IMG/VR virus record: IMGVR_UViG_3300008217_002327
Location: 1-32,239 of that record
From: a virus
Length of the DNA: 32,239 nucleotides
Direction: 5' to 3' (one strand)
The translations under genes were made by a program, and so were the position numbers. This document shows, piece by piece, positions 7,989-28,432 of this stretch. How positions within the stretch are numbered: the stretch's first letter is position 1; every line of letters begins with the position of its first letter. The notes below the pieces were generated by a model. It was given only the letters and a program-made list of their open reading frames with translations. It was not told the origin of the DNA and did not search any database.

Positions 7989-8773
7989 ATTTCAAAATAC
8001 CTCTCGTGTTTTGGTGGAAACTTGTCCTCTACCTTATTTAATATATCTGAAACATTAGACCAGATAGTCCGAAGGTATCTTTGAGATTCCCTCTTATTTA
8101 ATCGTACTCTAATAAGTGCCATTCCAGCAGAAAGAATAAGGCCATTTTTTGCTTGATCTAGGGCTTGCCTTTTCTCCAGCTTTTCCTGCCCAAATAAAGG
8201 CTCAAAATGAATAGGCCCGTCTACCTCTATAGCCACACGACAGCTAGGTACATACAGGTCAATATGGAATCTCTCGTTCTGTAAAAGGTGCTCTTTGTGC
8301 TTATCTACCCTATATCCGTTCTGGACGAGATTATCGAATAGGAATAGCTCTACTTTAGAGCCATGCTGTGAGGCTCTCTGTATGGCCTCCTGTGACCTTT
8401 TAAAAAAATCCGCTCTCTCACTATCTGTTTTTTTATTCCACGCTTCTACGCCTATTTTTGAGCGTCTCTCGCGGTCTTCTGCTGTGAGGGTGTCCCACAC
8501 CTGCCCCTGGCTCTCACTTATCTTGTTTTTGGTAGCCTGTGACTGCTTCTTCCCCTCTGTAGGGTGGGATTGACGACCTTCTGATAAGGCCACTTTTTGA
8601 GCCTCAGACTTGTCTCTAGATTTTACGCCAAGCTTATGGGCATCCCGACGCACCCTGTTTGGATACGTATCAAAGAGTTTGGCGATTTCACCCCAACTCA
8701 TATTCTCATCATGATACAACTTATTGTATCTTTCAAAGCGTATCTTATTTGACTTGGCAAAAAACTGACTCAT
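7985..8773 (-). CDS. HTH plus Vsr/EDxHD-like PD-(D/E)XK nuclease, possibly homing
   Basis: 262 residues in three parts. Residues 12-50 resemble a helix-turn-helix (MSWGEIAKLFDTYPNRVRRDAHKLG). Residues 60-130 are Lys/Ser-rich and contain TKNKISESQGQVW, like the NUMOD-type DNA-binding repeats of homing endonucleases. Residues 138-225 form a Vsr/DUF559-like nuclease core with Glu142, Asp172 in FHIDLYVP, EVDG at 183-186, His189 and Asp206, the order expected of EDxHD enzymes. It sits between the glycosyltransferase block and the annealase, with ATGA overlaps on both sides, so it shows no intron or obvious mobile boundaries. It may be a free-standing homing endonuclease or a domesticated repair nuclease. 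Confidence 0.65.
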   Translation of the reverse strand: MSQFFAKSNKIRFERYNKLYHDENMSWGEIAKLFDTYPNRVRRDAHKLGVKSRDKSEAQKVALSEGRQSHPTEGKKQSQATKNKISESQGQVWDTLTAEDRERRSKIGVEAWNKKTDSERADFFKRSQEAIQRASQHGSKVELFLFDNLVQNGYRVDKHKEHLLQNERFHIDLYVPSCRVAIEVDGPIHFEPLFGQEKLEKRQALDQAKNGLILSAGMALIRVRLNKRESQRYLRTIWSNVSDILNKVEDKFPPKHERYFEI

Positions 8774-13379: not shown

Positions 13380-14440
13380 AGTATTTCCTTAACGGCGGCG
13401 TTATGCCCTGTAAAAAGCCTACTCTTGAAACTTAATAGTCTTTGCATTGCTATCTCGACGCTTTCACCTTGAAGGGTGGCCTCTATCATTTTTTCCCTTA
13501 AGCTGTTCATAATCGGCTTACTCCATGTAGACTCTCCGCACCACAGGTTAGCAACCGGCCTATCAGGATAAACACAAACCTCTTCATATGTACCAACAGC
13601 AAAAGGATTGTCATCAAATAAGTTAACAGTGTCAGGAACTATTGGAATACTACCTCTAGCAATTGACCTTAACAGGTTTTGGCTAGGAATAGCATTATAA
13701 GATACGTCTATAAAAAAGTCTGCCGCATGATGCAGATAGTTTACAACTTCTAGCTTGTCACTATTAATCACCATAATATTTGGATAGTATGAACCCTGCT
13801 TATAAATACCTAGTGAGTCTTTCAACTCCTTTACCTTCGCCTGAACCTGCTCTGCATTAGGACAGGCAACAATCAGGTTAACAGCTTGGCCAATATTAAA
13901 GGTTGATAAAAATGCAGTGAGTGTCTCTAACAGTCCTGACTTGGTATCCAACGAACCTACTGTATAAAAAGAAGTTCCCGACAAATTTAAATCTAAAATG
14001 TGGCATGAAGCGGTTAGGAAAAACGGAGGGAATGGGAAGGCTGCTATTTTAGACGACTCCACCCCCGATTCTTCTAGTAGTTTTTTTTCACTCTCTGAAC
14101 AAACAACAATTTGATCCATCTGGTTTAGATTATACAACCATCCGGTATTATCAATACGACCGTCTACTGCTAATACGGCTATGTTCTTTTTAAAATCTCC
14201 GTTATAATTAATGAAGGAGGGTAGCCCATGCTGAATGAGAATGTCTTTAGTTGACAACTCGCCGTTTTCATACTGCTCTATATTTTCTATGTCCTGTGCT
14301 TCGCCCTGAGATGCAAACCAGACAGGACGGAGGACTAGATTAACATCCTCTTGTGAGGATAGAAGCGTGGCAAGGGCTTTGCTGGTATATCCCCACTCGT
14401 CATTTTGTCTATACGGACCAACATAGAGAACGTCTAACAT
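13367..14440 (-). CDS. GT-B-like glycosyltransferase
   Basis: 357 residues. MLDVLYVGPYRQNDEWGYTSKALATLL is the acceptor-side opening of a GT4-type enzyme. DQIVVCSESEKKLLEESGV is the standard S-x-x-x-x-x-x-x-x-G-V step, and FYTVGSLDTKSGLLETLTAF the standard nucleotide-domain entry. The final motif NAIPSQNLLRSIARGSIPIVPDTVNLFDDN lacks the first Glu of E-x7-E, so catalysis may be altered. Start ATG overlaps the upstream TAA as TAATG. Part of the coupled glycan block; same general fold as the neighbour at 14440-16098 but clearly divergent from it. Confidence 0.65.
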   Translation of the reverse strand: MLDVLYVGPYRQNDEWGYTSKALATLLSSQEDVNLVLRPVWFASQGEAQDIENIEQYENGELSTKDILIQHGLPSFINYNGDFKKNIAVLAVDGRIDNTGWLYNLNQMDQIVVCSESEKKLLEESGVESSKIAAFPFPPFFLTASCHILDLNLSGTSFYTVGSLDTKSGLLETLTAFLSTFNIGQAVNLIVACPNAEQVQAKVKELKDSLGIYKQGSYYPNIMVINSDKLEVVNYLHHAADFFIDVSYNAIPSQNLLRSIARGSIPIVPDTVNLFDDNPFAVGTYEEVCVYPDRPVANLWCGESTWSKPIMNSLREKMIEATLQGESVEIAMQRLLSFKSRLFTGHNAAVKEILCLR

Positions 14441-16098
14441 TATTTTTTAATCCTTTTATGAGCTTCAACAACAAACGCAGGGACATTCTCTTTATGTAGC
14501 CCAGTGCGGAGGGAGTCGAAGAAAAATCTATGTTGAGCTAGCCTGTTCAATTCTTCAAACGTTGATTGCTGAGTACACTTTTTAACAAACCCCAGGCCAA
14601 AGTTAGCACCAAAATTAAGATCGCGTAATACTGTAAGCATTTTATAATTAAAGGCTGAGTACTGATCTTGTACGAGGGCTACAAAAGCCCACTCCGCAAA
14701 TTGAGCATGTGTCATTTTAGGCGGAATCTCGGCTGGAGGGGGAGTCATTAAGGGAGGGTGGTCCCATTTCCCCTCTAGATTCTTAGGCTCAATGCCGTCG
14801 ATATAATCTTCCCAGGCTTTAGCAGCACCATCCCAAGTATATCGGTCAACACAGCCCCTTCTAGTTTCCAGACGACGCTTTTTAACGGTGTTCTTGTCTG
14901 CCGAGGCACACCTTAGAAATATTTCTTTTAATGCTTGGTTATTGGGGCCAGAGCGTTCCGCATTAGTCTCCATTTCTCTAGCCAAGACAGGTGTAATTGG
15001 ATATCCCTTTACGTACCTTACCACATCTTCCATAGCACTATAATCAATGGCCGCTACTGGAACACCACAGGCGGCTGCTTCAACTTGAGGCATGCCAAAC
15101 CCTTCGCATATGGCGTACTGGGCGTATAGGTCAAAGAGGTTATAAATCTGTACTAGTTCTTCTGTTGATACGCCAGCAGACACTCCAGGCAATAAAGCAC
15201 CAGGAACCTTGCAGTGGTTGCATATGGTAAGTGCGTCTCGATAATGTGCTACAAAGAACTTCTTACACTGACGACACGTATAGGTGCAAAGAGCCTTTGA
15301 TCCCAGGCCGTATTCGTGAATAAGGGAAGTAATGTCCCATCCGTGCTTTTCTGGATAGCTAGTATGAAGGTATAGAAAGGACTTCTCTGCTATCTCTTTA
15401 GGTGCTTCATTTACAAAGTCTTTAAAAGCCTTCATTAATTCAGGAAACATTTTTCGCTTTTGGTTTCTCATGACAGTCCCTACGATAAAACTGTCAGGGG
15501 GTAGGCCAAAGCTCTCTTTGTGTTTTTCCTTATTAAGAATCATTTGGAATACAGTAGGATCAGTGGCAGGAGATGCACAGGCTACCGGCTTTAATCTGCC
15601 GTGTGTCTGCTCTTCTAAACACCTGATACCATATTCTGAATATGCCATTAGGCCGTCGCAACGATTAAATAGTTGGTAGAGCCATTCTAGCTTTTGCGGC
15701 TCGGAGTCAATAGTAGGCATCCAAACCCAATGAAAAAACGGCAAGAGTATACTGTCTGCGATATACGCATCCATCCAGGGGTCACGATAGGTTACAACTA
15801 CGTCTGGCCGAAAGTCAAGACATGCTCGTTCAAATCGTAAAGCCCCCCATTGAGCATTACGACTATCAGCATGTTCTTTTGCATATTGATCTTCTCCAGC
15901 CATCGGGCCTACGCCGTAGGTCAGCCAGTCAGTATTGTTGACGGCAGTAGGGCTACAATAACACCCTAGCTCAGCCAGCACATACTTGTCACTCTTATGC
16001 AACCGCTTTAAAATCTCTTTACCATAGACTCCAAACCCTGACGATAGGATGGAGGACTCAGTAACCACTAGAACTCTTTTTTTTCTATTATAACTCAT
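14440..16098 (-). CDS. GT4-family glycosyltransferase with inserted zinc ribbon
   Basis: This 552-residue protein is the clearest glycosyltransferase in the block. Residues 7-30 carry the acceptor-domain opening (RVLVVTESSILSSGFGVYG), 146-165 the GLMAYSEYGIRCLEE step, and 205-225 the donor-domain entry (IVGTVMRNQKRKMFPELMKA). Residues 332-340 carry the E-x7-E pair in CEGFGMPQVEAAACGVPV. Unusually, CRQC (275-278) and CNHC (293-296) lie between the strands of the donor domain, a C-x2-C-x14-C-x2-C zinc ribbon. The C-terminal ~140 residues (from ~415) form an extra domain of unknown role beginning with a Pro-rich linker. It overlaps the sigma factor gene by 11 bases and is the first gene of the block. 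Confidence 0.8.
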   Translation of the reverse strand: MSYNRKKRVLVVTESSILSSGFGVYGKEILKRLHKSDKYVLAELGCYCSPTAVNNTDWLTYGVGPMAGEDQYAKEHADSRNAQWGALRFERACLDFRPDVVVTYRDPWMDAYIADSILLPFFHWVWMPTIDSEPQKLEWLYQLFNRCDGLMAYSEYGIRCLEEQTHGRLKPVACASPATDPTVFQMILNKEKHKESFGLPPDSFIVGTVMRNQKRKMFPELMKAFKDFVNEAPKEIAEKSFLYLHTSYPEKHGWDITSLIHEYGLGSKALCTYTCRQCKKFFVAHYRDALTICNHCKVPGALLPGVSAGVSTEELVQIYNLFDLYAQYAICEGFGMPQVEAAACGVPVAAIDYSAMEDVVRYVKGYPITPVLAREMETNAERSGPNNQALKEIFLRCASADKNTVKKRRLETRRGCVDRYTWDGAAKAWEDYIDGIEPKNLEGKWDHPPLMTPPPAEIPPKMTHAQFAEWAFVALVQDQYSAFNYKMLTVLRDLNFGANFGLGFVKKCTQQSTFEELNRLAQHRFFFDSLRTGLHKENVPAFVVEAHKRIKK

Positions 16099-16531
16099 TG
16101 GCTTCCTGAATTTTGCGTAATGCTTTATAAAAGCGGCCCTTGACTACCGAAGGAGTTTCGTCTACAATCTGACAAATCTCTCTAAACTTATATCCTTGAC
16201 ACCGTAGGTCTACTAGATTCTTTTCCTCGTCGGTCATGTCGCTAGGATAATATTCCCAGATGTTCTCGATAGGAGTCGTCTGAGGTGGTGTTATATCCTC
16301 GATAGAAACATGATGCTTACTATTTTTAATCTCTCGGATTATTGCCCACCTAATGGGCCTCCAAGCATAAGTAGAAATGCAACCTTGAGAGGGATTGTGT
16401 TTTTTCAGGGCTTTCCATAGTCCAATTCTGCCAGCATCTAACAAGTCCTGTCGTTCAGTTGCATTCCTTGGCTGAAACTGCTTTACAATGGATGCCACCA
16501 GAGGCATGTTGTCTTCGATTAATTGATCCAT
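16088..16531 (-). CDS. Sigma-70 family RNA polymerase sigma factor (phage-encoded)
   Basis: 147 residues. Region 2 is seen at 9-67: LVASIVKQFQPR, then DLLDAGRIGLWKALKKHNPS, then ISTYAWRPIRWAIIREIKN, equal to the core-binding and -10-recognition helices. Region 4 is at ~98-145: MTDEEKNLVDLRCQGYKFREICQIVDETPSVVKGRFYKALRKIQE, the helix-turn-helix for -35 contact. Regions 1 and 3 are missing, as in small alternative or phage sigma factors. ATG 16531 follows AAGGA, which belongs to the TATAATAAGGAT element shared with the gene at 30438. It would redirect host RNA polymerase to phage promoters, plausibly those of late virion genes. Family call firm; target promoters unknown. Confidence 0.88.
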   Translation of the reverse strand: MDQLIEDNMPLVASIVKQFQPRNATERQDLLDAGRIGLWKALKKHNPSQGCISTYAWRPIRWAIIREIKNSKHHVSIEDITPPQTTPIENIWEYYPSDMTDEEKNLVDLRCQGYKFREICQIVDETPSVVKGRFYKALRKIQEANEL

Positions 16532-16536
16532 TATAC

Positions 16537-16548
16537 ATCCTTATTATA
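16537..16548 (-). promoter_or_regulatory. TATAATAAGGAT element before the sigma factor
   Basis: The - strand reads TATAATAAGGAT five bases ahead of ATG 16531. TATAAT fits a -10 box and AAGGA doubles as the ribosome site. An identical 12-mer stands at 30445-30456, at almost the same distance from its gene. No convincing -35 (TTGACA-like) was found at 16-18 bases upstream. If it is a promoter, transcription would start so near the ATG that the transcript would be leaderless or nearly so; alternatively the element is only a conserved ribosome site. Confidence 0.45.
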
Positions 16549-16553
16549 CTAGA

Positions 16554-18170
16554 CTAAGTTAATTTTTGTACACGCTTTACAAGAAAACTTCCTCTGTTCT
16601 TATCCCGATCTCCCCGCAAAAGTAAAATGTTATTTATTTTAATGTCGTTTTTATACTTATCCCAGGAGTCTGAGAATAGAGTTACGCTGTCTAAAGAACA
16701 GGTTCCATCGCTGACCTTGAGGAAGGCCATTTTTTGCCCCTTGCTCTTTCCATTCTTAATCTTCCACTCTCTAACATCGTTTATTTTTACAGCCATAGCT
16801 ATTGACGACGAGGTAAATCCTTCGGCATATTCAAGGCAGGTGCAGTTAGCGTCTCCGACATCATACTCGTCGATCTCGGTACAGGTGAGTTCGATGCCTA
16901 GAAGGTCACGCTCTTGCTTAGCTTTCCACGAAGGAGAGTCTTTTAGAGCATACGGAGGATTGTCAAGTGAGGTAATGGCCCCTTTAAACAACTCAATAAA
17001 TTTATCGGTATGTGCGGTACGACGCTCATTAGGTATCTTTTCGCTCAGTATCTCTTCTAGGCCACCCTTAAGTGTAACCTGCTCAGTGCTAGCTAAAAAC
17101 TTATAGTCCGACTCTCTGAAGTCTCTATATAGCTCCAAGTCGTAGAGCATCTTCATCCTAGATACTTTATAACAATCAAGTGCTCCTGCTGTAATCATGG
17201 CCTGGAAAGAGTCATATTTAATATGTCTTCCTAGCTTCATTAGGAATTGATCCCAAGTGAAGGTAGACAGGTCATAGTTGTTTTCTCTAACTATATCTCT
17301 TAGCTGATAAAATACTGAGTCTCCAACCCTCTTGATATTAGCCAGTCCATAAGTGGGCTTATCATTAAGTAGCTTAAAGGTTTTATTCATATTCAAGATG
17401 CTGGGCGGCATAATCTCGATGTTCATAATCTTAGCATTATTAACCAAGTCCTGAATTTCCTCCTGCGGCCTTTGCTTACCCTTGGCATGACGCAGCCATG
17501 AAGTAAAGAAAGCGAGTGGGAAGTGGGCCTTGATTACTGCGGTTAGGTATCCGTTGTGAGCATAGCAGACGGCGTGGGATTTATTAAAAGAATACTTTTG
17601 AGACTTTTCGATCCAGCTAAAGATTTCCTTAGCATCTTCTCGTGACACCACACCGTTGGCCTCTGCCTTGTCAATGAACTCGTTCTTGATCTGTGCCATT
17701 AGCTCTACCTTCTTTTTGCCAATAGCTCGCCTCAATATCTCTGCCTCTTGCAGATTGTATCCAGCGATGTCTTTGGCAATAGCTAGGGCTTCTTCTTGAT
17801 AAACAAGAATACCATAGGTACTTTCCAGTAGAGGCTCTAGTGCGGGATGCAAGTATTCTACGAGGTCTAATCCATGCTTGCGGTCGATATAGTGATCCGT
17901 GAGAGACTTACCAGCTACTACATTATCCTTAGTTCCAGGGCGGATAATGGCTGACAGGTCTGCCAACTCTTCCATGTTATTAGGTTGAGTTTTTGCGGCG
18001 TAGCTTTGACCAAGGTTTGAATCAAGCTGAAAAATACCCTTGGTATTGCCTTGACTAATCATATCCCATGTAGCGGGACAGTCAAAGCGGATTTTATCTA
18101 GATAAGGCTCAAAAATAGGATTGCCCTTATCGTTCAATTCAAATTTACAACCGCAGGGAAACTCTTTCAC
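16554..18170 (-). CDS. dnaE: DNA polymerase III alpha (DnaE-like), C-terminal half
   Basis: 538 residues, starting at GTG 18170 after AGGAAG. It picks up C-family polymerase where the N-half (19387-21282) stops. KGIFQLDS (44-51), IIRPGT (75-80) and YIDRKHG (94-100) begin the shared part, followed by YGILVYQEE (119-127), LRRAIGKKK (146-154), FNKSHAVCYA (195-204), the helix-hairpin-helix region YGLANIKRVG (274-283) and an OB-fold at ~455-538 (KINDVREWKIKNGKSKG, then VTLFSDSWDKY). It ends right after the OB-fold, so the tau-binding tail of E. coli DnaE appears absent. Residues 1-35 contain an extra CGC-bearing segment. The halves total 1169 residues, close to full-length DnaE. Non-covalent assembly with the N-half is inferred. 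Confidence 0.85.
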   Translation of the reverse strand: MKEFPCGCKFELNDKGNPIFEPYLDKIRFDCPATWDMISQGNTKGIFQLDSNLGQSYAAKTQPNNMEELADLSAIIRPGTKDNVVAGKSLTDHYIDRKHGLDLVEYLHPALEPLLESTYGILVYQEEALAIAKDIAGYNLQEAEILRRAIGKKKVELMAQIKNEFIDKAEANGVVSREDAKEIFSWIEKSQKYSFNKSHAVCYAHNGYLTAVIKAHFPLAFFTSWLRHAKGKQRPQEEIQDLVNNAKIMNIEIMPPSILNMNKTFKLLNDKPTYGLANIKRVGDSVFYQLRDIVRENNYDLSTFTWDQFLMKLGRHIKYDSFQAMITAGALDCYKVSRMKMLYDLELYRDFRESDYKFLASTEQVTLKGGLEEILSEKIPNERRTAHTDKFIELFKGAITSLDNPPYALKDSPSWKAKQERDLLGIELTCTEIDEYDVGDANCTCLEYAEGFTSSSIAMAVKINDVREWKIKNGKSKGQKMAFLKVSDGTCSLDSVTLFSDSWDKYKNDIKINNILLLRGDRDKNRGSFLVKRVQKLT

Positions 18171-18181
18171 GTTCTATCTTC

Positions 18182-18877
18182 CTATACTGCGTGGCTTTTT
18201 TGTTTTGCAAACGAACCCTTAAACTTGCCAATGCTTGCTTGCTTTCTATGGAACTTCATAAATCGAACAAACATCTCGGCTTCTTCGTATACATCGGGTA
18301 GAGCAAGGTGAGCCTGACCCTGAGATGGAATCTTTAAAAAGTCTCGTAGTGTATCCATCTTTAAATCATTAGGCTCATCCAAGTTCTCAAACCACAAAAA
18401 CATTAAATCCATTAAATCAATTTTGGTTACGTGTGAGAACGGCAGCTTGGCTTTATGCTTTTCCGACAAGCGGTTAGCAATTATCAAGTCATACCCTATA
18501 AGATTATACGCCACTGGGATAGGTTGCGGGAACCATTGTCCTGGTCTTTTATCCACATCGTACTTAGCACAGTAGGCACAGAACTGCTTCCATGCGGTTT
18601 TTTGAGCAACCCCTTCCTTCCACCGGTTGACAATGTCTTCATACGAGCAGCCCGCATTATCGGCATGCCACTGGATCGTTTTCTTACGATCATTGTCGAA
18701 ATATTCTTCGCTATCAATTCCTGGGGGCCGCATCAGCACACTGAAAGAATGATCCCTCTTTATTTCAAGAGTGTCTGGATCAATCGGTACTGCCGCTAGC
18801 TCTACCGGATTACATTCATGGGGATTTTTCCCATCCGTTTCAAAGTCAAAGCATATAAACCATCTGCTATTCTTCAT
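18182..18877 (-). CDS. DEDDh 3'-5' exonuclease (proofreading, DnaQ-like)
   Basis: 231 residues. Exo I is FDFETD (Asp11, Glu13), Exo II the AYNLIGYD segment (Asp130), and Exo III HLALPD (190-195), an exact H-x-A-x-x-D. All catalytic positions of the DEDDh class are thus present. It removes mismatched 3' nucleotides and is most likely the proofreader for the split polymerase whose halves flank it (C-half 11 bases downstream). AAGGA precedes ATG 18877, which overlaps the upstream gene by 11 bases. Bacterial epsilon binds polymerase through the PHP domain; whether this does is unknown. A lone host-attack exonuclease is the less likely alternative. Confidence 0.85.
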   Translation of the reverse strand: MKNSRWFICFDFETDGKNPHECNPVELAAVPIDPDTLEIKRDHSFSVLMRPPGIDSEEYFDNDRKKTIQWHADNAGCSYEDIVNRWKEGVAQKTAWKQFCAYCAKYDVDKRPGQWFPQPIPVAYNLIGYDLIIANRLSEKHKAKLPFSHVTKIDLMDLMFLWFENLDEPNDLKMDTLRDFLKIPSQGQAHLALPDVYEEAEMFVRFMKFHRKQASIGKFKGSFAKQKSHAV

Positions 18878-19130
18878 TTATGATATCCTTTTTTAAGATA
18901 GGTCGGTAGACAGAATCTCTCCAGTGTCGGGCAGAATCCCTCCATTCAAAAGAGCCGTCTTTCCAATCTTCGGCCTTTTCAATAATGCTCCAGGCTTCCT
19001 CTAAGCCCTTTATTAGATCATCTATTCTAGATGCAAACGCTTCGGCTAGGTTTGGGTCCATCGGAAGATGCTTAGTGTTAAAATCACGCCAACACTGAGC
19101 AGCTATTTCTTGCGAGACTTCTTTAAACAT
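18867..19130 (-). CDS. Small hypothetical protein between the polymerase halves
   Basis: This 87-residue protein is almost wholly helical and rich in Trp (six), Asp and Glu: IAAQCWRDFNTKH, LIKGLEEAWSIIEKAEDWKDGSFEWRDS and HWRDSVYRPIL. No known motif or membrane segment is visible. An AAGG stands directly before ATG 19130, with AAGGGA further up. It overlaps the exonuclease gene by 11 bases. Its place between polymerase halves and proofreader hints at a replication accessory role, but nothing in the sequence shows one. Confidence 0.65.
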   Translation of the reverse strand: MFKEVSQEIAAQCWRDFNTKHLPMDPNLAEAFASRIDDLIKGLEEAWSIIEKAEDWKDGSFEWRDSARHWRDSVYRPILKKDIINEE

Positions 19131-19166
19131 CCTTACATTCCCTTGAATCTTAGTCGTCCGTGGCGT

Positions 19167-19400
19167 CTAGTCTTCGCAATCCTCACACTCTATCAGCAGT
19201 TCATGGAACCGGATAGACCCTTCTCTATCTTTAATGTGCAGACTCACTGTTCCTGGCTGTGCTTCGATATCACGATCAAGTGAACCACACAGTTCTTCCC
19301 AAGCATCCTTAGTGACTACGATCCTTTTAAGAAAGGGGTAGCCCTGAGACAGCTTCAACATATCAATACGAAACTTTCTAATATTTTCAATCTTCATCAT
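19167..19400 (-). CDS. Small hypothetical protein directly after the polymerase N-half
   Basis: The 77 residues include a helix-loop start (IRKFRIDMLKLSQGYPFLKR), a strand-helix IVVTKDAWEELCGSLD, and a strand pair (GTVSLHIKDREGSIRFHELLI) ending CEDCED. There are two in-frame ATGs (19400 and 19397); the AGGAG just upstream is better spaced for the second. The start overlaps the polymerase N-half's stop by about 14 bases. I recognise no family; the C-terminal CxxC is a single pair and not a full zinc site. A gap of 36 bases with no feature follows. Confidence 0.6.
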   Translation of the reverse strand: MMKIENIRKFRIDMLKLSQGYPFLKRIVVTKDAWEELCGSLDRDIEAQPGTVSLHIKDREGSIRFHELLIECEDCED

Positions 19401-21282
19401 CTTCTCCTGCTATGATTTTAACGGCGTCACTAACTCTATCTAAGGTAGACAACCCTAGACAATCCAATTTTAATAAACTAACCTGTTCACAGTGCGGCCC
19501 TTCAAACCCTGCTAGCATATGCTTTCCGCCCTTGTCTAAGACCATAGGGCAGGAATCACTAATAGGATTAGCAGAGATTACTATACCAGCCGCATGCTTA
19601 CCTGAAATAATTTTAGTTTTTTCTAAACGAATAGCCTGTTCAAAGATACGAGCCATCGGCCCCTCTAGCTTGTGACCGTTGCTTCCCAACTGAACCCAGG
19701 GCTTCAATTGATCTGCCTTATTCTCTAAGGCCCACAATATAGTAGACGAGATGCCATACTCTTGTTTAATGTCTCCCAATTCATCTGAGATTTTACTCTC
19801 GTCTACGATGTGAGAGGTAATAGAGTTCTGTTCGTCAAACGAGATGTTGCCACGAGCAGCCATAACTCGCTTTAACGAGGCTCGACCTTTCAAGGTTTGG
19901 AATGTAATGATCTGAGCCACATTCTCTTTACCATATTTATTTCTAACATATTCTATGATCTCGGGTCTAGCTTCTTTCGGAACATCAAAGTCAATGTCAG
20001 GCCACGAAATATGCCCTGGAGCATTACGTCCTAAGTTATAGAATCGTTCAAAGACTAGGTTGTAGGGAATTGGGTCTACCTGAGTGATGTTTAATAGGTA
20101 TGATACCATACATCCTGCGGCAGAACCTCTACCTGGACCCGTTAAATAGCCCTGGTTTCTGGTAAACTGCAAGATGTCGTCCACTATGAGGAAATAGCTA
20201 GACAGGTTAACTCCAGTAAATACATCTAATTCGTGATTAACACGCTCTCCATATTTTGAAAAGTCCGTAGACAGTGTATTAATATGCCCCATCTTACCTT
20301 CCCATCCCTGACGACAGAGAAAGCGTAGGTAGTCGTTGGGGTCTGAGCCATCGGGACATGTAAACTTGGGAGGATTCGGCGGGGCTAAGATATTATAGTC
20401 CTCACACATATCTGCAATAACGTTTGTATTGGCTAGTTCTTCGTCTGTATGAAACTCTTGCATATCCTCTAGAGATGGGATATGGTAGTTGTCTGACTGG
20501 AAGAACGTTTGGAGGGTACGATTGGCCTTGCCCTCGCTCAGGTCACGCTGCACCTCTCCTATGGTCTTTTTAAAAGAGGTACATAGCAAGACCCTTTGAT
20601 CTTCGGCGTCTTCTCGGGTGCAATAGTGAGCGTCTGGAGTGGCTACACAGGGGATGCCTGTATTCGCAGCGATGTACCTCAGTGCCTTACCCACCATACC
20701 AGCGAAGGTATTTATTTTAGAATCAATAAGTTGTATCTCGATAAAGAAGTTACCCTTGCCGAATACGACTTCTAGATTTTTAGCACAATACATGCCCTTC
20801 TTCATCCAGTCGGGGTCTAGCCTGTCTCCATCAGTAATGGCATTGGCTAGCATTGACCCTAGATGACCGCTAAAAGACACCAAATTCTTCTGACTACCGG
20901 CCTTTGCCAATAGGTCAAGGTCGATTCGGGGGCGATAATAATAGTGTTCTGGGCGATTTGCTGTTGACGATAGGCCAAGCAAGTCTTTCCAACCCTGCTC
21001 ATTTTTAGCTAGCACCACCTGATGATCTAATGCTCTATTTTCCTTGCTTCTATTTAGAACGTCTTCTCTGCACACATACATTTCACAACCAAGAATGGGC
21101 TTTAACCCCTTAGTCTTCATCTTGTCAAAGAAGTCAACTGCGGCACTGACACTTCCGTGGTCCGTGATAGCACAAGCCTTAGAGCCAATCTGCTCAGTAC
21201 GTTCTGCAATATCCTCACACTGGCTCAGGCCATCTAAAAGCGAGTATTCCGAATGTACGTGGAGAGGGGTATAATGCTTCAT
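19387..21282 (-). CDS. dnaE: DNA polymerase III alpha (DnaE-like), N-terminal half
   Basis: 631 residues. A PHP domain fills 1-~290: HVHSEYS at 8-14, ITDHGS at 39-44, GCEMY at 65-69 and TPDAHY at 215-220 keep metal-ligand positions. The palm has GPGRGSAAG (382-390), WPDIDFD (427-433) holding the first two catalytic Asp (431, 433), GKHAAGIVIS (561-570), and LLKLDCLGL (603-611) with the third catalytic Asp at 607. The protein then stops 24 residues later in an acidic tail. In E. coli DnaE the chain would run on into the fingers; here that part is the separate gene at 16554-18170. No intein motif is seen. ATG overlaps the upstream TGA as TGATG. Confidence 0.88.
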   Translation of the reverse strand: MKHYTPLHVHSEYSLLDGLSQCEDIAERTEQIGSKACAITDHGSVSAAVDFFDKMKTKGLKPILGCEMYVCREDVLNRSKENRALDHQVVLAKNEQGWKDLLGLSSTANRPEHYYYRPRIDLDLLAKAGSQKNLVSFSGHLGSMLANAITDGDRLDPDWMKKGMYCAKNLEVVFGKGNFFIEIQLIDSKINTFAGMVGKALRYIAANTGIPCVATPDAHYCTREDAEDQRVLLCTSFKKTIGEVQRDLSEGKANRTLQTFFQSDNYHIPSLEDMQEFHTDEELANTNVIADMCEDYNILAPPNPPKFTCPDGSDPNDYLRFLCRQGWEGKMGHINTLSTDFSKYGERVNHELDVFTGVNLSSYFLIVDDILQFTRNQGYLTGPGRGSAAGCMVSYLLNITQVDPIPYNLVFERFYNLGRNAPGHISWPDIDFDVPKEARPEIIEYVRNKYGKENVAQIITFQTLKGRASLKRVMAARGNISFDEQNSITSHIVDESKISDELGDIKQEYGISSTILWALENKADQLKPWVQLGSNGHKLEGPMARIFEQAIRLEKTKIISGKHAAGIVISANPISDSCPMVLDKGGKHMLAGFEGPHCEQVSLLKLDCLGLSTLDRVSDAVKIIAGEDDED

Positions 21283-22376
21283 CAGTTTTCACCTTTAGGA
21301 TCGTGTACTTTACCCCCACCCTCTCCATACGCACCTTGCACATGGTCGGGATGAACGTAGTTTTCCATGACCCACTCAAGACCTTTCTTGTCAATCATAT
21401 AGCGAACTTGTTCGCACTTTGTCATCGTTTCTTTGTAACGGGTTACTTTGCCAGGACGCTCTTCAATCAGCGGTACTATGTGCGGGGTATCTTCAAAGGT
21501 TGTTTTGCCCGCATGACACAGCTTGGAACATTTCCATACCTGGGAGTAATCCTTCTCACGAATTGTACTCGGCTTTTCTGTATCTCGGATAGCCTCAAAC
21601 CTTTTCTGAATCATTCTTTCTGTTTCTTCTAGGTCAGAGTCTTGGAAGTGGACTGTATACGCACCTCCATCATTAACAAACATGATAGTAACCAAAAAAG
21701 TTGAAACGTGCGGATACATCTGCTTGACAGCATAGTGATACAGGCGAAGCTGTGCGTCCGAGAAAAGCTTGTGCTGATCCTTAGTTTGTCCCGTTGCCCA
21801 GTCCAGGCGTCGTCCAGTTTTCCAATCTATTACTTCATAGACCCCATCGCCCATATCGGAAATTAAGTCAATTGTTCCCTTGAGCCCCAGACTACCTTTC
21901 AATCCTTGCTCTGGATAATCGTACTTGGCCCACTCATGAGGTAGTTCAAAATCGAAGAACGGTTCGGCGTCCACGACATTGAGCTTTCTTGGATCAAGCA
22001 TGCCGTCGTTATATTTCAAGGTTTTCCATGTCCAGCTTACGATGTCTTTAAAGTCTCGGTCTGTCCACTTGTGATGGGCTACGCCCTTAATGTAGTCCTG
22101 ATAGACCCTGGCAGCTACATCGCCCAAATATTCTGGATCATAGTTTGCCGTTTCTACCTCTCCAATATCACCATCAATAATCATAGACTCGCCTTCTTGG
22201 TGAGCCTTCTTACATAGAGCACAAATTTCCAAAACCTTGTGAACGATGCTACCCTTGTCAGCCTTTTTATTTGACGGCCCCTTATAGCCTAGACCATATT
22301 CAAATAGATACTGCATCTCACAGAACCGATGGCAATTAAATGAACTGCTACGGAAATATACAATTGGAATACTCAT
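21282..22376 (-). CDS. RecB/Cas4-like PD-(D/E)XK nuclease with four Cys
   Basis: 364 residues. The RecB-nuclease set is complete: SSSFNCHRFCEMQYLFEYGL near the N-terminus, GSIVHKVLE with His46, GTIDL with Asp170, VIDWKTG with Asp184 and Lys186, and the Q-x-x-x-Y of AQLRLYHYA at 209-213. Cys15, Cys19, Cys283 and Cys287 are placed like the Fe-S ligands of AddB/Cas4-type enzymes, though the spacing is not the standard C-x2-C. It would degrade or resect DNA ends, here likely for recombination or to supply nucleotides. It overlaps the polymerase N-half by one base. No CRISPR array is in the window, so a CRISPR adaptation role is not suggested. Confidence 0.8.
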   Translation of the reverse strand: MSIPIVYFRSSSFNCHRFCEMQYLFEYGLGYKGPSNKKADKGSIVHKVLEICALCKKAHQEGESMIIDGDIGEVETANYDPEYLGDVAARVYQDYIKGVAHHKWTDRDFKDIVSWTWKTLKYNDGMLDPRKLNVVDAEPFFDFELPHEWAKYDYPEQGLKGSLGLKGTIDLISDMGDGVYEVIDWKTGRRLDWATGQTKDQHKLFSDAQLRLYHYAVKQMYPHVSTFLVTIMFVNDGGAYTVHFQDSDLEETERMIQKRFEAIRDTEKPSTIREKDYSQVWKCSKLCHAGKTTFEDTPHIVPLIEERPGKVTRYKETMTKCEQVRYMIDKKGLEWVMENYVHPDHVQGAYGEGGGKVHDPKGEN

Positions 22377-22388
22377 TTATTAATCCTC

Positions 22389-23210
22389 TTAGGAGGGTTC
22401 TTGTGATACAATCAACCGAGGAATGTTCTCGCACCTAAGTCGAGAAATGGCTTGGTAGATAGACGCACATTGCTCCTCTATATTCATTGAGTGGTTCTTA
22501 ATGACCACATCGCACAAGTCAAAGTTAATCTGCTCGCTGGCATGGGTGTCTTTAGACTCGAAAATATCTCGGTCTAGTCCGAGGATGGTAGCACCCGCTT
22601 CTTTTAAGATACTTGTTTCATTTTCAAAGCGGACATCACATATCAATGCTACTTCTGGTTGCTCTCTTTTAATCCTACGAAGTAAGGTATCAACCCATAC
22701 CGTGTCATACATCTTACGAAAGACTTCCGTTCCCATATACTGCAACACTTCACGGATGGTCATATTTCCTGGTATGTGATAGGTCATCCCAAGTTTAGCC
22801 ATAGTGTCCAAATCGACAGAACCGTCGTCAGTTACTCCTGGCATATCCTCCCAAAGCAAGTGAGTTACTTCCTGCTTATCTGAATCCGTTCCATATACCT
22901 TATCCTCTTCCAGTCCCAAGACATCAATAGCAGTACGCTTGAGGGCATCGGCCAAGGCGTATATCTTACAGAATGGACCTATAGACTGGCACAGACCATC
23001 AACATTAACGTAGGGAGGTCTAAACGGAAACCAGTCCATCCCAGGAACGGTTTGCTCCAGTACATCTTGTACTTCTAGCTCGCCAGTAAGTTCATTAATT
23101 CTAATATTCCTAGAAATATTATACTGCTTCAGTTTAAGCATCATAATGAAGTTACAAGCCGTGTTTTTGCCACTTTGCTTTTTACCAGCAAATCCAATTA
23201 TTTGCGTCAT
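22389..23210 (-). CDS. Deoxynucleoside monophosphate kinase
   Basis: 273 residues. IIGFAGKKQSGKNTACNF at 4-21 holds a Walker A loop (GKKQSGKNT). IYALADALKRTAIDVLGL is the substrate-side helix seen in phage dNMP kinases such as T4 gp1, and TIREVLQYMGTEVFRKMYDTVWV and EVALICDVRFENE match the later conserved blocks (the last near the DxRF position). The enzyme phosphorylates dNMPs, perhaps including modified ones, to supply DNA synthesis. ATGA couples it to the gene upstream. The larger size compared with simple kinases comes from an insert at ~35-75. I am fairly sure of the family. Confidence 0.85.
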   Translation of the reverse strand: MTQIIGFAGKKQSGKNTACNFIMMLKLKQYNISRNIRINELTGELEVQDVLEQTVPGMDWFPFRPPYVNVDGLCQSIGPFCKIYALADALKRTAIDVLGLEEDKVYGTDSDKQEVTHLLWEDMPGVTDDGSVDLDTMAKLGMTYHIPGNMTIREVLQYMGTEVFRKMYDTVWVDTLLRRIKREQPEVALICDVRFENETSILKEAGATILGLDRDIFESKDTHASEQINFDLCDVVIKNHSMNIEEQCASIYQAISRLRCENIPRLIVSQEPS

Positions 23211-23440
23211 TTTGTACCTTCCTCCCGCCCAAATGTTTCGCGTAGAATATCTAGACGGTCTTTAGCATCAACTAGCTGATCGAGTGCTTCGTCAAGGTTC
23301 TTCTGGAAGTCTCCGGTAGAGTGGTCGCCAATTCCTACCGACTTATCTAGCAGTAGGGTCAGAGACATGAGTGCCTTTGATCTGTCGGACTTAGCCTTGT
23401 TTACTAGGTAGTCTAGTGCATGTGTTCTTGTTTCACTCAT
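23207..23440 (-). CDS. Small helical hypothetical protein
   Basis: 77 residues, helical throughout: THALDYLVNKAKSDRSKALMSLTLLL, then LDEALDQLVDAKDRLDIL, with a Gly/His linker at ~37-43. There is no membrane segment and no motif I recognise. ATGA overlaps at both ends (primase upstream, dNMP kinase downstream) make it a genuine member of the replication operon. The two amphipathic helices could form a coiled-coil dimer. Confidence 0.65.
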   Translation of the reverse strand: MSETRTHALDYLVNKAKSDRSKALMSLTLLLDKSVGIGDHSTGDFQKNLDEALDQLVDAKDRLDILRETFGREEGTK

Positions 23441-24600
23441 TGATAATTCTCCTTGGCCAAATCAATATATGGCTTTATATCTTCAGTAATACTGTCTATG
23501 TTTAGGTCCGCTATATCGCCCCCGTCAAAAGAGGGGAAGTATAGGCGGTACGCTTTGCTACACTTCTTAGTAATTTCTTCTGCCGCTCGTTGTCCTGCTT
23601 CGTCGTTATCCATCAAGGCTATAATGGACAATGCTCCTGACTCGTCTATTAATGCTTTCTGAGAGTCGTGTAGCACCGCTCCGAATAGCCCTACGGAATT
23701 ATGTATTCCTGCCTCTTCTAGTCTCCACACATTCCCAGGAGATTCAACTAAAATAATAACTCCAGTTTTCTGGATGTGCTGCTTTGCCTTCCAGTAATTA
23801 TACAAACACTTTTCCTTCTCAAAGCCTTTTGTATGCTTCCACTTTGGAAAAAAATAGCAATCTTTACTAGGATCGTGATAGGACTTACACTCATCGCATA
23901 CTCCAAATATACTACGTCCTGTAAAGCCTATGATATGTTCTCCGCTAGCATCGTATACTGGAACTGTGGCTCGATTATACATGGGCTTTTTATATGTTTT
24001 ACAAGTACCCACATCATAATCATCTAACACTTCAATAGAATATCCCCGCTGCAAGTAATACTGCGAAGGTATATCCACCTTACTCCTATAGAAGTCTTTG
24101 GTAACAATTCCACTAGAGGGAGTATCTTGATGGCTTAAAGTATTAATTAGCTTGCAAAACTCTTGATGGTCTTGACTATGGGTAGCTCCACTGAGCTTAG
24201 AGAATTTTAGATCGAACTTTTCTAATAGAAACTCTACGGTGGCATCGAAAGAAACAGTTCTATCGCCAGCCGATTTCCAGCCGTAGCGAAGGTGAGACAG
24301 ACCGCCTCGGATCATACTCAGGAGAGACGTTCCAAAATGCCTCTCACACTCATGAGTTCGACATTTGTAGTGGACTCTATAGTCGGCGTTATAGTAAAGA
24401 TTCAACGCCGAAGTATTATCGCCGCCATGAATAAAGCACGATGAAAAGATAACCTTTTCTCCACGACGAGACTCCAAGTCAAAGTATTCATATACTTGCT
24501 CGATATTATCTAATACTAGATCAGTAAGCCCGTTTAGCTTCTCTTGATCTTTGTACTTAGAATGGTACGTCTGCTTCTTGTTCTGCATAGTCATCGTCAC
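23437..24600 (-). CDS. DNA primase (CHC2 zinc domain plus TOPRIM)
   Basis: 387 residues from GTG 24600, preferred because AGGA lies six bases upstream; ATGs at 24594 and 24588 are alternatives. The N-terminal zinc site is Cys55-x2-His58 with Cys80 and Cys85 (CRTHEC), the CHC2 type. VPVYDASGEHIIGFTGRSI (212-230) resembles the core entry of DnaG. A second Cys set (234, 237, 247) follows. The TOPRIM part shows ILVESPGNVWRLEEAG (281-297, Glu285) and ALMDNDEAGQRAAEEI (327-342, Asp330 and Asp332). It makes RNA primers for the split polymerase and works with the overlapping helicase gene. No helicase-binding C-domain beyond TOPRIM is evident. Confidence 0.85.
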   Translation of the reverse strand: MTMTMQNKKQTYHSKYKDQEKLNGLTDLVLDNIEQVYEYFDLESRRGEKVIFSSCFIHGGDNTSALNLYYNADYRVHYKCRTHECERHFGTSLLSMIRGGLSHLRYGWKSAGDRTVSFDATVEFLLEKFDLKFSKLSGATHSQDHQEFCKLINTLSHQDTPSSGIVTKDFYRSKVDIPSQYYLQRGYSIEVLDDYDVGTCKTYKKPMYNRATVPVYDASGEHIIGFTGRSIFGVCDECKSYHDPSKDCYFFPKWKHTKGFEKEKCLYNYWKAKQHIQKTGVIILVESPGNVWRLEEAGIHNSVGLFGAVLHDSQKALIDESGALSIIALMDNDEAGQRAAEEITKKCSKAYRLYFPSFDGGDIADLNIDSITEDIKPYIDLAKENYQ

Positions 24601-25996
24601 CGGTTCCTATTCCACCGTCTAATTCATATGCGGTATAGCCCTGAATTAGTTTGGCGTACTTACCCTTCATTAGTATATTGATGTAGTCTCCATCGTCCAA
24701 GCCTTCTCCGTGGCGAGCGATTACCGGAACCAATTTTCTATTACCATTCTCTGGCCCGTCTTTTGCTATTTCTTCGTCTGACTTATGCTTATAGATAGTG
24801 AAGTTAGAACATAGCCAAATGACTCGATCAGAGCCACTGGCCGTGTCTGTCGTTTCTTTATTAATACCATCGCGGTTTAGTTGGATGAAAGTTAAAACGG
24901 GTACGTCGTAACGTAGTGCAAAATTGTGCAGGGCGGTCATCATGAACCCTAGCACCTGGAACTCTTTCATGTCTCCGCGAAGATCGGCTGAGTCCATCAG
25001 TTTTAAATAATCATAAATAATAACGCAGTCGTTTGCTTTACCCTGATCGTTTACGCCAACAGTGCGAGCAATCCAACGTCTCATAATTGAAAGCTGATCT
25101 TCAAATGGTCTGCCCCCAACATTCTTATGATAATATTCAATATCTTTATTCTCAATGCCCAATTGCTTTAAGTCGTCTGTGAACTGGCCCGTTTCAACGT
25201 CGTTAATAGTAACCTTGTTGTCGCTTTCGTAAGACAGCATGGCCATACCACGGTCTTGGTGATCCTTCTTACGCATTTCAGTATCAAGGTTGAGTACAGG
25301 AATGCCGCCTTTAGCAATCGCAATGCCGACGTTCTCGGCCATTAGGGTCTTTCCAACCTTCGGACGAGCACCAATAACGTTAACAGTACCACGCCTGAGC
25401 CCGCCGCCAATAGCAAAGTCGTATTTTGAAAAGCCAGTGGGTATTCCAATCTGGTCAACAGGGTTTGAACTAAGCTCATCTAGATACTCCTCTATGTCTT
25501 CAAATACCTTTTGGGGGGTATCGTCATTATCGTTAAGTAAACTGGTGAAGTCGAAGATGGACTCTTCGGCAATGCCTAGAATATGAGAGACGGGTTCGTC
25601 GCCTTTGATATGCAGGTATTTATCTTTAGTCTCTTCTAGCTGCTCGTACATCATTCGTGCGATTTGCAGCTTGCGTATCTTGGCGGCAAACCTACGCACG
25701 TTGTCTAGCAGGACTGGAAACTTAAAGATGGCTGAAAGGTGGTTGATTTCTTGTTTCTGATTTAAGAAATCTGATAGACCTAGCTCCTTGGCAGAAGATA
25801 GGATCGAAGCAATGTCAATCTTCCTAGTGTCGTCTTCCTGCATGAGGCGTTGGACACACGCATAAATAACATTGTTGGATTCAATAGTGAAGGTTTCACT
25901 ATTTACCAAGTCTGCGACATCGTAATATGCTTCGTTTCCATACCTAGTAATTCCTGCAAGAACGGCACGTTCTGCGGCGGCGTCACTTAATATCAT
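24557..25996 (-). CDS. dnaB: DnaB-type replicative helicase
   Basis: The start is ATG 25996 (ATGA overlap with the zinc-ribbon gene), giving 479 residues. Residues 1-~150 are the DnaB N-terminal helical domain (AAAERAVLAGI, then VIYACVQRLM). The RecA-like motor has IPTGFSKYDFAIGGGLRRG before Walker A GARPKVGKT (209-217), then VLNLDTEM (motif 1a), VIIYDYLKL as Walker B, and PVLTFIQLNRD (motif 3 with Gln). The C-terminus is acidic (GDDDYAEQEADVPF), as in phage SSB and clamp-binding tails. It unwinds the fork ahead of the polymerase. The primase gene overlaps its end by 44 bases. Confidence 0.87.
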   Translation of the reverse strand: MILSDAAAERAVLAGITRYGNEAYYDVADLVNSETFTIESNNVIYACVQRLMQEDDTRKIDIASILSSAKELGLSDFLNQKQEINHLSAIFKFPVLLDNVRRFAAKIRKLQIARMMYEQLEETKDKYLHIKGDEPVSHILGIAEESIFDFTSLLNDNDDTPQKVFEDIEEYLDELSSNPVDQIGIPTGFSKYDFAIGGGLRRGTVNVIGARPKVGKTLMAENVGIAIAKGGIPVLNLDTEMRKKDHQDRGMAMLSYESDNKVTINDVETGQFTDDLKQLGIENKDIEYYHKNVGGRPFEDQLSIMRRWIARTVGVNDQGKANDCVIIYDYLKLMDSADLRGDMKEFQVLGFMMTALHNFALRYDVPVLTFIQLNRDGINKETTDTASGSDRVIWLCSNFTIYKHKSDEEIAKDGPENGNRKLVPVIARHGEGLDDGDYINILMKGKYAKLIQGYTAYELDGGIGTGDDDYAEQEADVPF

Positions 25997-26541
25997 CCAC
26001 AAGCACTCCCTGAACACGAGTTACACTTATATCTACTTGCATTAGAAACTAAGGAGCCAGACACCTGTTCTACTTCTCCGCAGGTGTGGCAACGAACCTC
26101 AACCATAGGATTAGGTCGCTTTTTAGCTCTACTGCTACGAACCTTACGGTCTGCTTTATCTGCCTCTGCTGCCTGAGCTAATTCTGCCTGTTCTGCGGGG
26201 TCTAAACTAGGATTGTCTAAAATCTCGTGAAATTTATTATCACGATCACCCGTCTCAAAGGGAAGTATACGACAGGCCCGCTGTTTTGACTTGACGGCGG
26301 TGCGATTTTCTTTACGTTTTTTACCTTTACTTTGAGGCTGGTTCGTATTACGCCTACCCTTCCCCCTTCTCCTATTGGGCTTGGGGCCACGGATTTGATG
26401 CTGATTGGGCGGTGTCTGATCTTCTACCTCATCTTCTTCTACTTCTTCTTCTAAATTTTCTGACAGTACCGACTCCAACTCTTCCAAGTCTTCGGGATTT
26501 AACTTCGATAATAGTCTAGCTATTCTTTCTTTTTTATTCAT
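25993..26541 (-). CDS. Basic zinc-ribbon protein upstream of the helicase
   Basis: 182 residues: an N-terminal helix (NKKERIARLLSKLNPEDLEELESVL), an acidic patch (~30-42), a long basic low-complexity part (RRRGKGRR, KGKKRKENR; ~52-88), a helical middle (SLDPAEQAELAQAAEADKADRK), and a zinc ribbon at the end with C-x2-C at 151/154 and 173/176. The basic stretch implies nucleic-acid binding. ATGA overlaps link it to the helicase downstream and the 164-residue gene upstream. In T4 the corresponding slot near helicase and recombinase holds a loader or mediator; that analogy is speculative here. Confidence 0.6.
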   Translation of the reverse strand: MNKKERIARLLSKLNPEDLEELESVLSENLEEEVEEDEVEDQTPPNQHQIRGPKPNRRRGKGRRNTNQPQSKGKKRKENRTAVKSKQRACRILPFETGDRDNKFHEILDNPSLDPAEQAELAQAAEADKADRKVRSSRAKKRPNPMVEVRCHTCGEVEQVSGSLVSNASRYKCNSCSGSACG

Positions 26542-27032
26542 CGCATTGCCTTTGCCTTTTGTAGATTCATAAATAGATTACTGCGGCTTCTAACCGAGGT
26601 CGCCAAGTATGTAATCCTATCAGCCCGCTGTTGAGCATAGTTCTGTATTTTAAAAACACCTTTCGCATAGCTATTCTCTTTAATAGCCTGTACAAACTGA
26701 CTGTCCCAAGAGCCATTATACTGGGACTCTCGACCGGAGATCATTTCTCTCAGTACATTCTTTGACCAGTTAACCCTTGCAGTCTCTCTATTAAGGGCTC
26801 TCTGCAAATGAAAAGCAAAGCTGTCTAAGATCATAGCGATCTCAGCACAGTCTTCGACAGTTAATTTCTCCATTTGCCGACGATCCATACCAAGATACGT
26901 ATTGATCTCAGACCCATCGTGGTCCTCATTAAACTCAGCAAGGCCAAGTCTAGCCTCGTATTCGTTTAAAACTGTATCTAGCTGGTCGAGTCGCTGCTTT
27001 GGAGTTAGCGATTCTGTATTCGGGTTCGCCAT
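26538..27032 (-). CDS. Helical recombination-block protein (possible mediator)
   Basis: 164 residues, helical. It starts with TPKQRLDQLDTVLNEYEARLG, then LTVEDCAEIAMILDSFAFHLQRALNRETARVNWSKNVL, and ends with NYAQQRADRITYLATSVRSRSNLFMNLQKAKAMR. The N-R-E-x-x-x-x-x-W-x-x-x-x-L helix and the basic C-terminal helices recall, loosely, recombination mediators such as T4 UvsY, which load RecA/UvsX on ssDNA. Position near the RecA-like gene, with only the Vsr-like nuclease between, supports that. The start overlaps the nuclease gene by 28 bases; a GAAGGTGA is upstream. The mediator call is inference only. Confidence 0.55.
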   Translation of the reverse strand: MANPNTESLTPKQRLDQLDTVLNEYEARLGLAEFNEDHDGSEINTYLGMDRRQMEKLTVEDCAEIAMILDSFAFHLQRALNRETARVNWSKNVLREMISGRESQYNGSWDSQFVQAIKENSYAKGVFKIQNYAQQRADRITYLATSVRSRSNLFMNLQKAKAMR

Positions 27033-27415
27033 TCTTCATCACCTTCACTATAAGGTAGTTCGATCAAAGTAATATTGTTAATCTCGCACCACTCTCTCTT
27101 ATCTATATCTCTTTTCTTTTGCTGTAAAAAATGAGCAGTCGTCGAGTGATACATACTATTGTATTTATAGTGCTGGATACCGTGTGCTTCTACGGCAAGC
27201 TTAATATCGTTAATAAAGAAATCAAAATATTGAGTCGTCCCTCGTCTAACTGGGATCGGAACCTCTTCTGTTATTTGTGATGTGGGGAACAGGTCATAAA
27301 GTATACGCCGAACATCCAGGTGTAGCTTAGAGCGACTACGCTTATCCTGAGCCGCTACCACTTCGCCCTTTGGCTTCCAGTCTACTATATCCCCGTTTAG
27401 ATCACGAGTTTTCAT
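27005..27415 (-). CDS. Vsr-like / PD-(D/E)XK endonuclease next to RecA
   Basis: 136 residues. YFDFFINDIKLAVEAHGIQHY (63-83) matches the core of Vsr/EDxHD-type nucleases: Asp65, Glu76, His78 and His82, then DIDKREWCEINNITLIEL with Asp103 and Asp105 and the following strand. The N-terminal KLHLDVRRILYDLFP and ITEEVPIPVR are the usual helix and strand before the core. No DNA-binding tail or HTH is attached, unlike the related nuclease at 7985-8773. It starts three bases after the RecA-like gene's stop. A resolvase or nicking role in recombination is plausible. Confidence 0.65.
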   Translation of the reverse strand: MKTRDLNGDIVDWKPKGEVVAAQDKRSRSKLHLDVRRILYDLFPTSQITEEVPIPVRRGTTQYFDFFINDIKLAVEAHGIQHYKYNSMYHSTTAHFLQQKKRDIDKREWCEINNITLIELPYSEGDEEWRTRIQNR

Positions 27416-27418
27416 TTG

Positions 27419-28432
27419 TTACTCAAGTCCCGCCATCACTCTGACCTCGGCATTTAATTGGTCAAAGGCTGTTCGATCTTGCTCTAAAAAGGCAGCAGCG
27501 TTTGGTTTACCCTGATACTGGCTGCCATCGTTGAACTTAATCCAGGCTCCTGACTTTTTCAATATTCCGAAGTCGCAAGCTAGGTCGATTAGCTCCATCT
27601 CTTCCCAAATGCCACGGCCATATTTCATATAGCACTGTACCTTTTGACCAGGAGAGGTGTTCGTTGCCGTGTTTTCTACGATCCAATTAATCTTCTGCCC
27701 TATCTGATACTCTCCTTGCTTCAAGGGCTCTCTATGTGTAGCGTATAGCTTTACGTCCTGAGCATATTTTAGGGCGTTACCAGACTTCTCCACCTTCTTT
27801 TTTGCGTTGCCCATCGCACCAATGTTCGCCATGATATGCGTAATGCCTACCAGGGTTACTCGATTAATGGGGAGCACGTTAGCAAATCTACGTGTGAACT
27901 TAGCAATAAACTTTTGCATGACCGCCACTTGTGCGTCTGCTAAGTCTTCCTTTAATTCTTTTTCAGAAGCAAGGGCAGAGAAAGAGTCTATCACTCCTAC
28001 AGAATTAGGAATATGATGTACCATGTTATCAAAGATGGCCAGATACTTTTCACCCGACAAGATATTACCCTTAGTCGATCCCACTATCCGCAAGTAGTCT
28101 GGGTCTAAGTCTAGGCCGTTTATGCCCTCTAGGTCACGCTTCTTGAGACGACCTTCTATATTGCCGTACATAATCTTTCTGCGTGACCCATCTGCCAGCA
28201 ATACCCTCTGAGCGTTTTTGCAGAAGTGTAGTGCTACCGTTGTCTTTCCCACCTTTTCTGGCCCAGTCATAATAAACAGAGAGCCTTCAGGAACGCCACC
28301 CCCAAGAGCTATGTCGAGCTTAGGGGTTAGCGGAATAAGGGGCGGTGGGTTATCTATGATGTAGGCGGGGTCTAGTAGTACATCCCCAAATTCTTTTGCA
28401 ATGTCCTTGTCAAAATCCGGTTTCTTAGTCAT
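27419..28432 (-). CDS. recA: RecA/UvsX-family recombinase
   Basis: 337 residues. LTPKLDIALGGGVPEGSLFIMTGPEKVGKTT (35-65) carries Walker A GPEKVGKTT at 57-65. SVGVIDSFSALA is the Walker B strand, and NRVTLVGITHIMANIG (the L2-neighbourhood and sensor-like step) follows. The C-terminus LIDLACDFGILKKSGAWIKFNDGSQYQGKPNAA is the well-known RecA end, where G-W-Y-x-Y-x-G-x-x-I-G-Q-G-x-x-N normally stands. It forms filaments on ssDNA and drives strand exchange, and would support recombination-dependent replication together with the annealase at 7263. ATGA overlaps the upstream gene. High confidence. Confidence 0.88.
   Translation of the reverse strand: MTKKPDFDKDIAKEFGDVLLDPAYIIDNPPPLIPLTPKLDIALGGGVPEGSLFIMTGPEKVGKTTVALHFCKNAQRVLLADGSRRKIMYGNIEGRLKKRDLEGINGLDLDPDYLRIVGSTKGNILSGEKYLAIFDNMVHHIPNSVGVIDSFSALASEKELKEDLADAQVAVMQKFIAKFTRRFANVLPINRVTLVGITHIMANIGAMGNAKKKVEKSGNALKYAQDVKLYATHREPLKQGEYQIGQKINWIVENTATNTSPGQKVQCYMKYGRGIWEEMELIDLACDFGILKKSGAWIKFNDGSQYQGKPNAAAFLEQDRTAFDQLNAEVRVMAGLE

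Follow-up and report, generated by a model that had tools for sequence, protein, structure and literature searches.

Bacteria replicate their DNA with DnaE-type polymerases. The window analyzed here, a stretch of 32,239 nucleotides (nt) that makes up positions 1 to 32,239 of the viral record IMGVR_UViG_3300008217_002327, encodes a C-family polymerase of this type, the DNA polymerase III (Pol III) alpha subunit, in two separate genes designated the N-half and the C-half (Table 1). Pfam matches over the cut-off are PHP and DNA_pol3_alpha for the N-half, and DNA_pol3_finger and HHH_6 for the C-half. Both open reading frames (ORFs) lie where the original prediction, made from the sequence alone, had described them. 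The N-half stops 24 residues past its third catalytic aspartate, the two products add up to 1169 residues (631 + 538), and the C-half has a GTG start of its own with the sequence TAGGAAG, which includes the predicted AGGAAG, located 7 nt 5′ of it. The catalytic residues D429, D431, and D607 are the counterparts of D401, D403, and D555 in Escherichia coli DnaE. A single polypeptide is the usual though not universal state of DnaE; here, two genes are present in all of the split relatives that were read.

Table 1. Features of the split polymerase locus, numbered by position in the window.
Feature	Position	Strand	Basis or remark
N-half of DnaE-type Pol III alpha, 631 amino acids, ATG start: PHP, palm, thumb	19387..21282	minus	Pfam, AlphaFold2
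D429 and D431 (PDIDFD), first two catalytic aspartates, N-half	19990..19998	minus	invariant in 94/94 N-halves
D607, third catalytic aspartate, 24 residues before the N-half end	19462..19464	minus	invariant in 94/94 N-halves
Small ORF, 77 amino acids, overlapping the N-half gene end	19167..19400	minus	conserved in near relatives only
Small ORF, 87 amino acids	18867..19130	minus	no family match
DEDDh 3′-5′ exonuclease (DnaQ-like), 231 amino acids, candidate proofreading subunit	18182..18877	minus	phrog_192 'DNA polymerase exonuclease subunit', RNase_T
TAGGAAG: exonuclease stop codon overlapping the likely C-half ribosome-binding site	18178..18184	minus	sequence
C-half N-terminal extension, residues 1-11, C6-G-C8	18138..18170	minus	unaligned to any solved DnaE structure
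C-half of DnaE-type Pol III alpha, 538 amino acids, GTG start: fingers, HhH, OB	16554..18170	minus	Pfam, AlphaFold2

AlphaFold2 models of the separate halves, built on alignments of relatives, have a mean predicted local distance difference test (pLDDT) score of 89 for the N-half and 92 for the C-half. The N-half model superimposes on residues 3–579 of E. coli DnaE (2hnh) with a Z-score of 36.8 and a root-mean-square deviation (rmsd) of 3.4 over 567 residues. The C-half model, from residue 11 or 12 onward, matches residues 573–1074 (5fku_A) with a Z-score of 22.0 over 454 residues and an rmsd of 8.4, a value presumably due to a different domain placement; its finger part aligns with residues 576–910 of 2hnh with a Z-score of 20.8 and an rmsd of 3.4. 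In profile alignments to 2hpi, the N-half ends at residue 637 and the C-half starts at residue 639. As modeled, the two halves are complementary and abutting, covering the E. coli DnaE chain without loss up to the OB fold, and the models place the break in the palm–fingers loop, near E. coli residues 576–579. The C-terminal tau-binding domain, which is absent from some DnaE enzymes, is missing from the C-half as had been predicted; the model reaches only as far as residue 1074 of the 1160 in E. coli DnaE.

Relatives were collected in three alignment-based scans of IMG/VR (best 80 loci each, ranked by similarity) and one scan of GTDB; the records are metagenomic, and overlapping fetches are counted separately in the locus counts. 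The scans contain at least 251 split loci with both halves readable, corresponding to about 125 non-redundant C-halves (<80% identity) from uncultured phage loci, and the break point recurs in the phage genomes across the whole lineage. The split is common to relatives down to ~40% identity. No fused viral relative was found among the loci listed from the three IMG/VR scans, and fused DnaE was met only in known phages and cellular genomes, where the matched part is ~40% identical or less. In a phylogenetic tree, 40 split rows form one group with a Shimodaira–Hasegawa-like approximate likelihood ratio test (SH-aLRT) support of 100 and a stem of 0.93. No member of the lineage was found among 50,697 sequenced phage records; the nearest of these is ~30% identical, and most of those inspected are fused. 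A near-identical phage, recorded separately as a 62-kb contig (99.97% identity over 14.7 kb), also has the arrangement, which, together with the recurrence in relatives, rules out chance or a read error as the cause of the separate ORFs.

Both halves are constrained in sequence. The catalytic aspartate triad is invariant, and the ratio of nonsynonymous to synonymous substitution rates (dN/dS) is 0.015–0.09 for both halves in near pairs, in which synonymous sites are often near saturation; both halves are under strong purifying selection. The possibility of a decaying gene, or of an error in sequencing or assembly, has a vanishingly small probability and was rejected, as no point was found in its favor, the same break is present in the near-identical contig and in all split relatives, and dN/dS is below 0.1. 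The original view that this is a division and not decay thus stands. Two subgroups can be distinguished in the lineage. In the larger one, the PHP metal site is intact (91–97% conservation at nine ligand positions in 65 N-halves), and almost every C-half opens with an extension of ~12–20 residues of the type F-x-C-G-C-x-F, which is missing from the fused DnaE enzymes inspected. In the other subgroup, the N-half is ~100 residues shorter and has lost the PHP ligands while retaining the aspartate triad, and most C-halves begin directly at the fingers.

A different explanation is that the polymerase function is gone and that the phage is replicated by its host, with the N-half serving as a regulator or PHP nuclease and the C-half binding DNA. 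In its favor, no phage clamp was found on the contigs checked, and a simple pattern for the internal clamp-binding motif is present in only 19 of 97 C-halves, although degenerate motifs would escape such a pattern. It is nonetheless improbable: the palm triad stays invariant even where a subclade has lost the PHP site, the fingers residues are strongly conserved, and the constraint on both halves contradicts a loss of function. Moreover, the contigs checked contain no other replicase family, yet primase and helicase genes are present in the window. Each contig checked carries one PF07733 gene, present in one contig as two pieces that flank an inserted ORF, and PF00476 (PolA), PF00136 (PolB), and DnaN are all missing from 20 contigs of 49–200 kb. 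A full-length dnaE elsewhere on the same contigs, which would have undermined the original prediction, was likewise not found.

The halves are not adjacent in the window. They are separated by a gap of 1216 nt, with 33, 28, and 15 stops in its three frames, that contains two small ORFs and, nearest the C-half, the gene of a DEDDh exonuclease. This gene was missed in the original prediction, as were the lineage-wide extent of the split and the Cys-x-Cys extension of the C-half. The DEDDh residues D11, E13, D130, H190, and D195 are invariant in 11 sequences, and the PDB matches of the protein are the PolC exonuclease domain, ExoI, and DnaQ. The exonuclease gene lies between the halves in 251 of 251 split loci with both halves readable (175/175 and 76/76; two further loci of the second set were excluded because the fetched DNA stops short of the N-half). 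In most of 99 representatives, its stop and the start of the C-half are no more than ~20 nt apart, and the overlap of this stop with the likely C-half ribosome-binding site in the window suggests that the exonuclease is translationally coupled to the C-half. In-frame fusion of the exonuclease to either half was found in 0 cases. The exonuclease is the predicted epsilon-like proofreader of the split polymerase, and its retention where the PHP site has been lost would fit a working proofreader. In two relatives, proteins of 820–834 amino acids with RCC1-like repeats, recognized by eye, are encoded between the N-half and exonuclease genes (L010:8057-10561 and L011:8056-10518).

A rival explanation is that a full-length DnaE is restored before or during translation, either by trans-splicing of RNAs or by splicing out an intron that bears the exonuclease gene much as introns bear homing-endonuclease genes. 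Group I introns are known inside phage polymerase genes, and a LAGLIDADG-type ORF lies within the N-half gene of some relatives. At the break itself, start and stop codons are present in both halves, no Rfam intron was detected in the window between 16 and 22 kb or in nine related loci, the halves are between 0.64 and 6.8 kb apart among relatives, in some cases with many genes in the gap, and most C-halves carry the extra N-terminal extension not seen on the fused enzymes inspected, which makes such a restoration highly improbable. The LAGLIDADG-type ORF interrupts the N-half gene just 5′ of the PDID catalytic motif (L073:4108-7101; also L079, L082, and L094) and may belong to an intron or intein; L073 gave no Rfam intron match. 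In another relative (L083:3205-4933), the N-half is found in two frames and lacks ~37 residues around the first two catalytic aspartates, through decay, an assembly gap, or an intron.

Rejoining at the protein level by an undetected split intein that trans-splices the halves in the manner of cyanobacterial DnaE is extremely improbable. The original prediction had reported no intein motifs at the break, and none were found on reading the sequences: the N-half ends ~10–25 residues past the third aspartate, which leaves too little length for the N-part of an intein, and the ~12–20 amino acids of the C-half extension contain no intein C-part with a terminal HN ahead of Cys, Ser, or Thr. A split-intein-like arrangement is seen at a different site in one relative (L063:4062-7122), in which the N-half gene is broken again at GRGS/AAGC and resembles a split-intein "fractured gene". 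Here, an apparent intein N-part ends one ORF, a free-standing endonuclease-like ORF follows, and an apparent intein C-part (..GVHN/S) opens the next ORF.

The C-half extension has its own pattern of conservation. Cys6, Cys8, and Cys31 co-occur in 63 of 63 extended C-halves, while Cys31 is missing in 30 of the 34 others. The Cys-x-Cys extension and Cys31 are putatively assigned as an assembly or metal-binding hook of the C-half.

The replicative Pol III alpha of this phage is most probably composed of two polypeptides that form a non-covalent heterodimer and are expressed with their own proofreader. The N-half would contribute the PHP domain, the thumb, and the palm with all three catalytic aspartates, and the C-half would contribute the fingers, HhH, and OB domains. 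The halves would dock non-covalently to rebuild one normal DnaE active site, and the exonuclease from the same gene row would proofread. Since the separate halves are cut beside the active site and no self-splicing element was found at the break, we infer that the two proteins assemble, which would be the only reasonable route to a complete active site. A precedent for such assembly is established in the T4-like phage 25, in which the 43A and 43B parts of the split polymerase co-purify and are active (PMC2988022). The suggestion that the interface between the halves allows regulation found no support and is speculation. Several points weigh against the heterodimer or limit what can be drawn from the comparisons. 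The contigs come from metagenomes and are incomplete, and a genome may thus encode a further polymerase elsewhere. The cysteine trio of the proposed metal hook amounts to only about two changes on the tree, and a shared metal site is consequently a hint rather than a result. The distance matrices of the N-half and C-half correlate with r = 0.90, but values almost as high (0.84–0.86) are obtained with the exonuclease; the correlation thus mostly reflects shared descent, and the mirror-tree comparison is uninformative. A more elaborate and rather unlikely proposal extends the heterodimer to an obligate three-chain replicase core of PolN, exonuclease, and PolC, in which the exonuclease would help to bridge the palm and fingers halves, the Cys hook of the C-half would lock the assembly, and polymerase and proofreader would form only together.

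The cyanobacterial DnaE is also encoded by two genes, dnaE-n and dnaE-c, with the cut within the fingers, and its parts are covalently rejoined by the split DnaE intein. The phage system shares the two separate DnaE genes with it, but has no intein, is cut in the palm–fingers loop, and carries an exonuclease gene between the halves. The contrast drawn in the original prediction was too narrow, as a split Pol III alpha had already been reported in jumbo phages (PMC7824862). In group 2.2 jumbo phages, a split minimal Pol III alpha (Iyer et al. 2021) consists of two standalone proteins that comprise the catalytic and template-binding core only, with distant genes and a PolB alongside (PMC7824862). 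Both are phage C-family polymerases in two proteins; in the present lineage, however, the enzyme extends from PHP to OB, its genes are in a single cluster, and no PolB accompanies it in the 20 contigs. Split PolB and PolA are known from other phages (PMC2988022, PMC10580990, PMC6892783). In the T4-like phages 25 and 44RR, PolB is split into gp43A and gp43B with an ORF at the split, in association with a homing endonuclease or an untranslated insert (PMC2988022), whereas the polymerase described here is of the C rather than the B family, its split is fixed in the lineage, and the gene between the halves is a proofreading-type exonuclease. In the OM43 phages MEP401 and MEP402, PolA is encoded by two ORFs that flank a small one (PMC10580990), again a two-ORF phage replicative polymerase, but of the A family. 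A search of openly licensed papers found no description of the present arrangement. The PHP-to-OB extent, the exonuclease between the halves, the lineage-wide fixation, and the C-half extension set it apart from the known split polymerases.

Among the relatives inspected from the 50,697 phage records, the break point is shared only by Rossellomorea phage phiT1 (PV767480), an isolate whose gp20 and gp18 are DnaE halves split at the same junction with ~30% identity. PhiT1 differs from the lineage in having a 49-amino-acid ORF instead of the exonuclease and in lacking the Cys-x-Cys extension. A quick tree placed it outside the split clade, but the approximately unbiased (AU) test did not reject one clade with the lineage (p 0.58), and the two may share one splitting event. 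In Bacillus phage vB_BpsS-140 (L105:3839-7452), DnaE is found in two frames with a break between PHP and palm, in a region where the record annotates no gene.

The region around the polymerase (window positions 14440–28432) contains, upstream, genes for an exonuclease, a deoxynucleoside monophosphate (dNMP) kinase, a primase, a DnaB-like helicase, and a UvsX-like recombinase and, downstream, a sigma-factor-like ORF (16088–16531) and a glycosyltransferase (14440–16098). An HNH/homing-endonuclease-like ORF is located at 7985–8773. The split-bearing contigs matched in GTDB were binned with widely differing organisms and do not point to a host. Two different split-DnaE contigs (L189 and L190) occur in one Lokiarchaeota metagenome-assembled genome and are probably phage contigs misplaced by binning. 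Planctomycete-type genes, DUF1559-like and DUF1501-like by eye, were noted in L054:5581-6564 and in L112 (380–1666 and 2062–3273), a possible host clue that is a lead only.

This lineage is diverse in public viromes while absent from the sequenced phage records searched. The limits to which DnaE can be divided are illustrated by its stable, natural cut between palm and fingers, made without an intein, and the lineage lends itself to testing how the halves of a polymerase assemble and whether a proofreader may also serve as a structural partner, with phiT1 as a cultivable model for a split at the same junction. The three-chain core, if true, would represent a lineage-wide, intein-free heteromeric DnaE.

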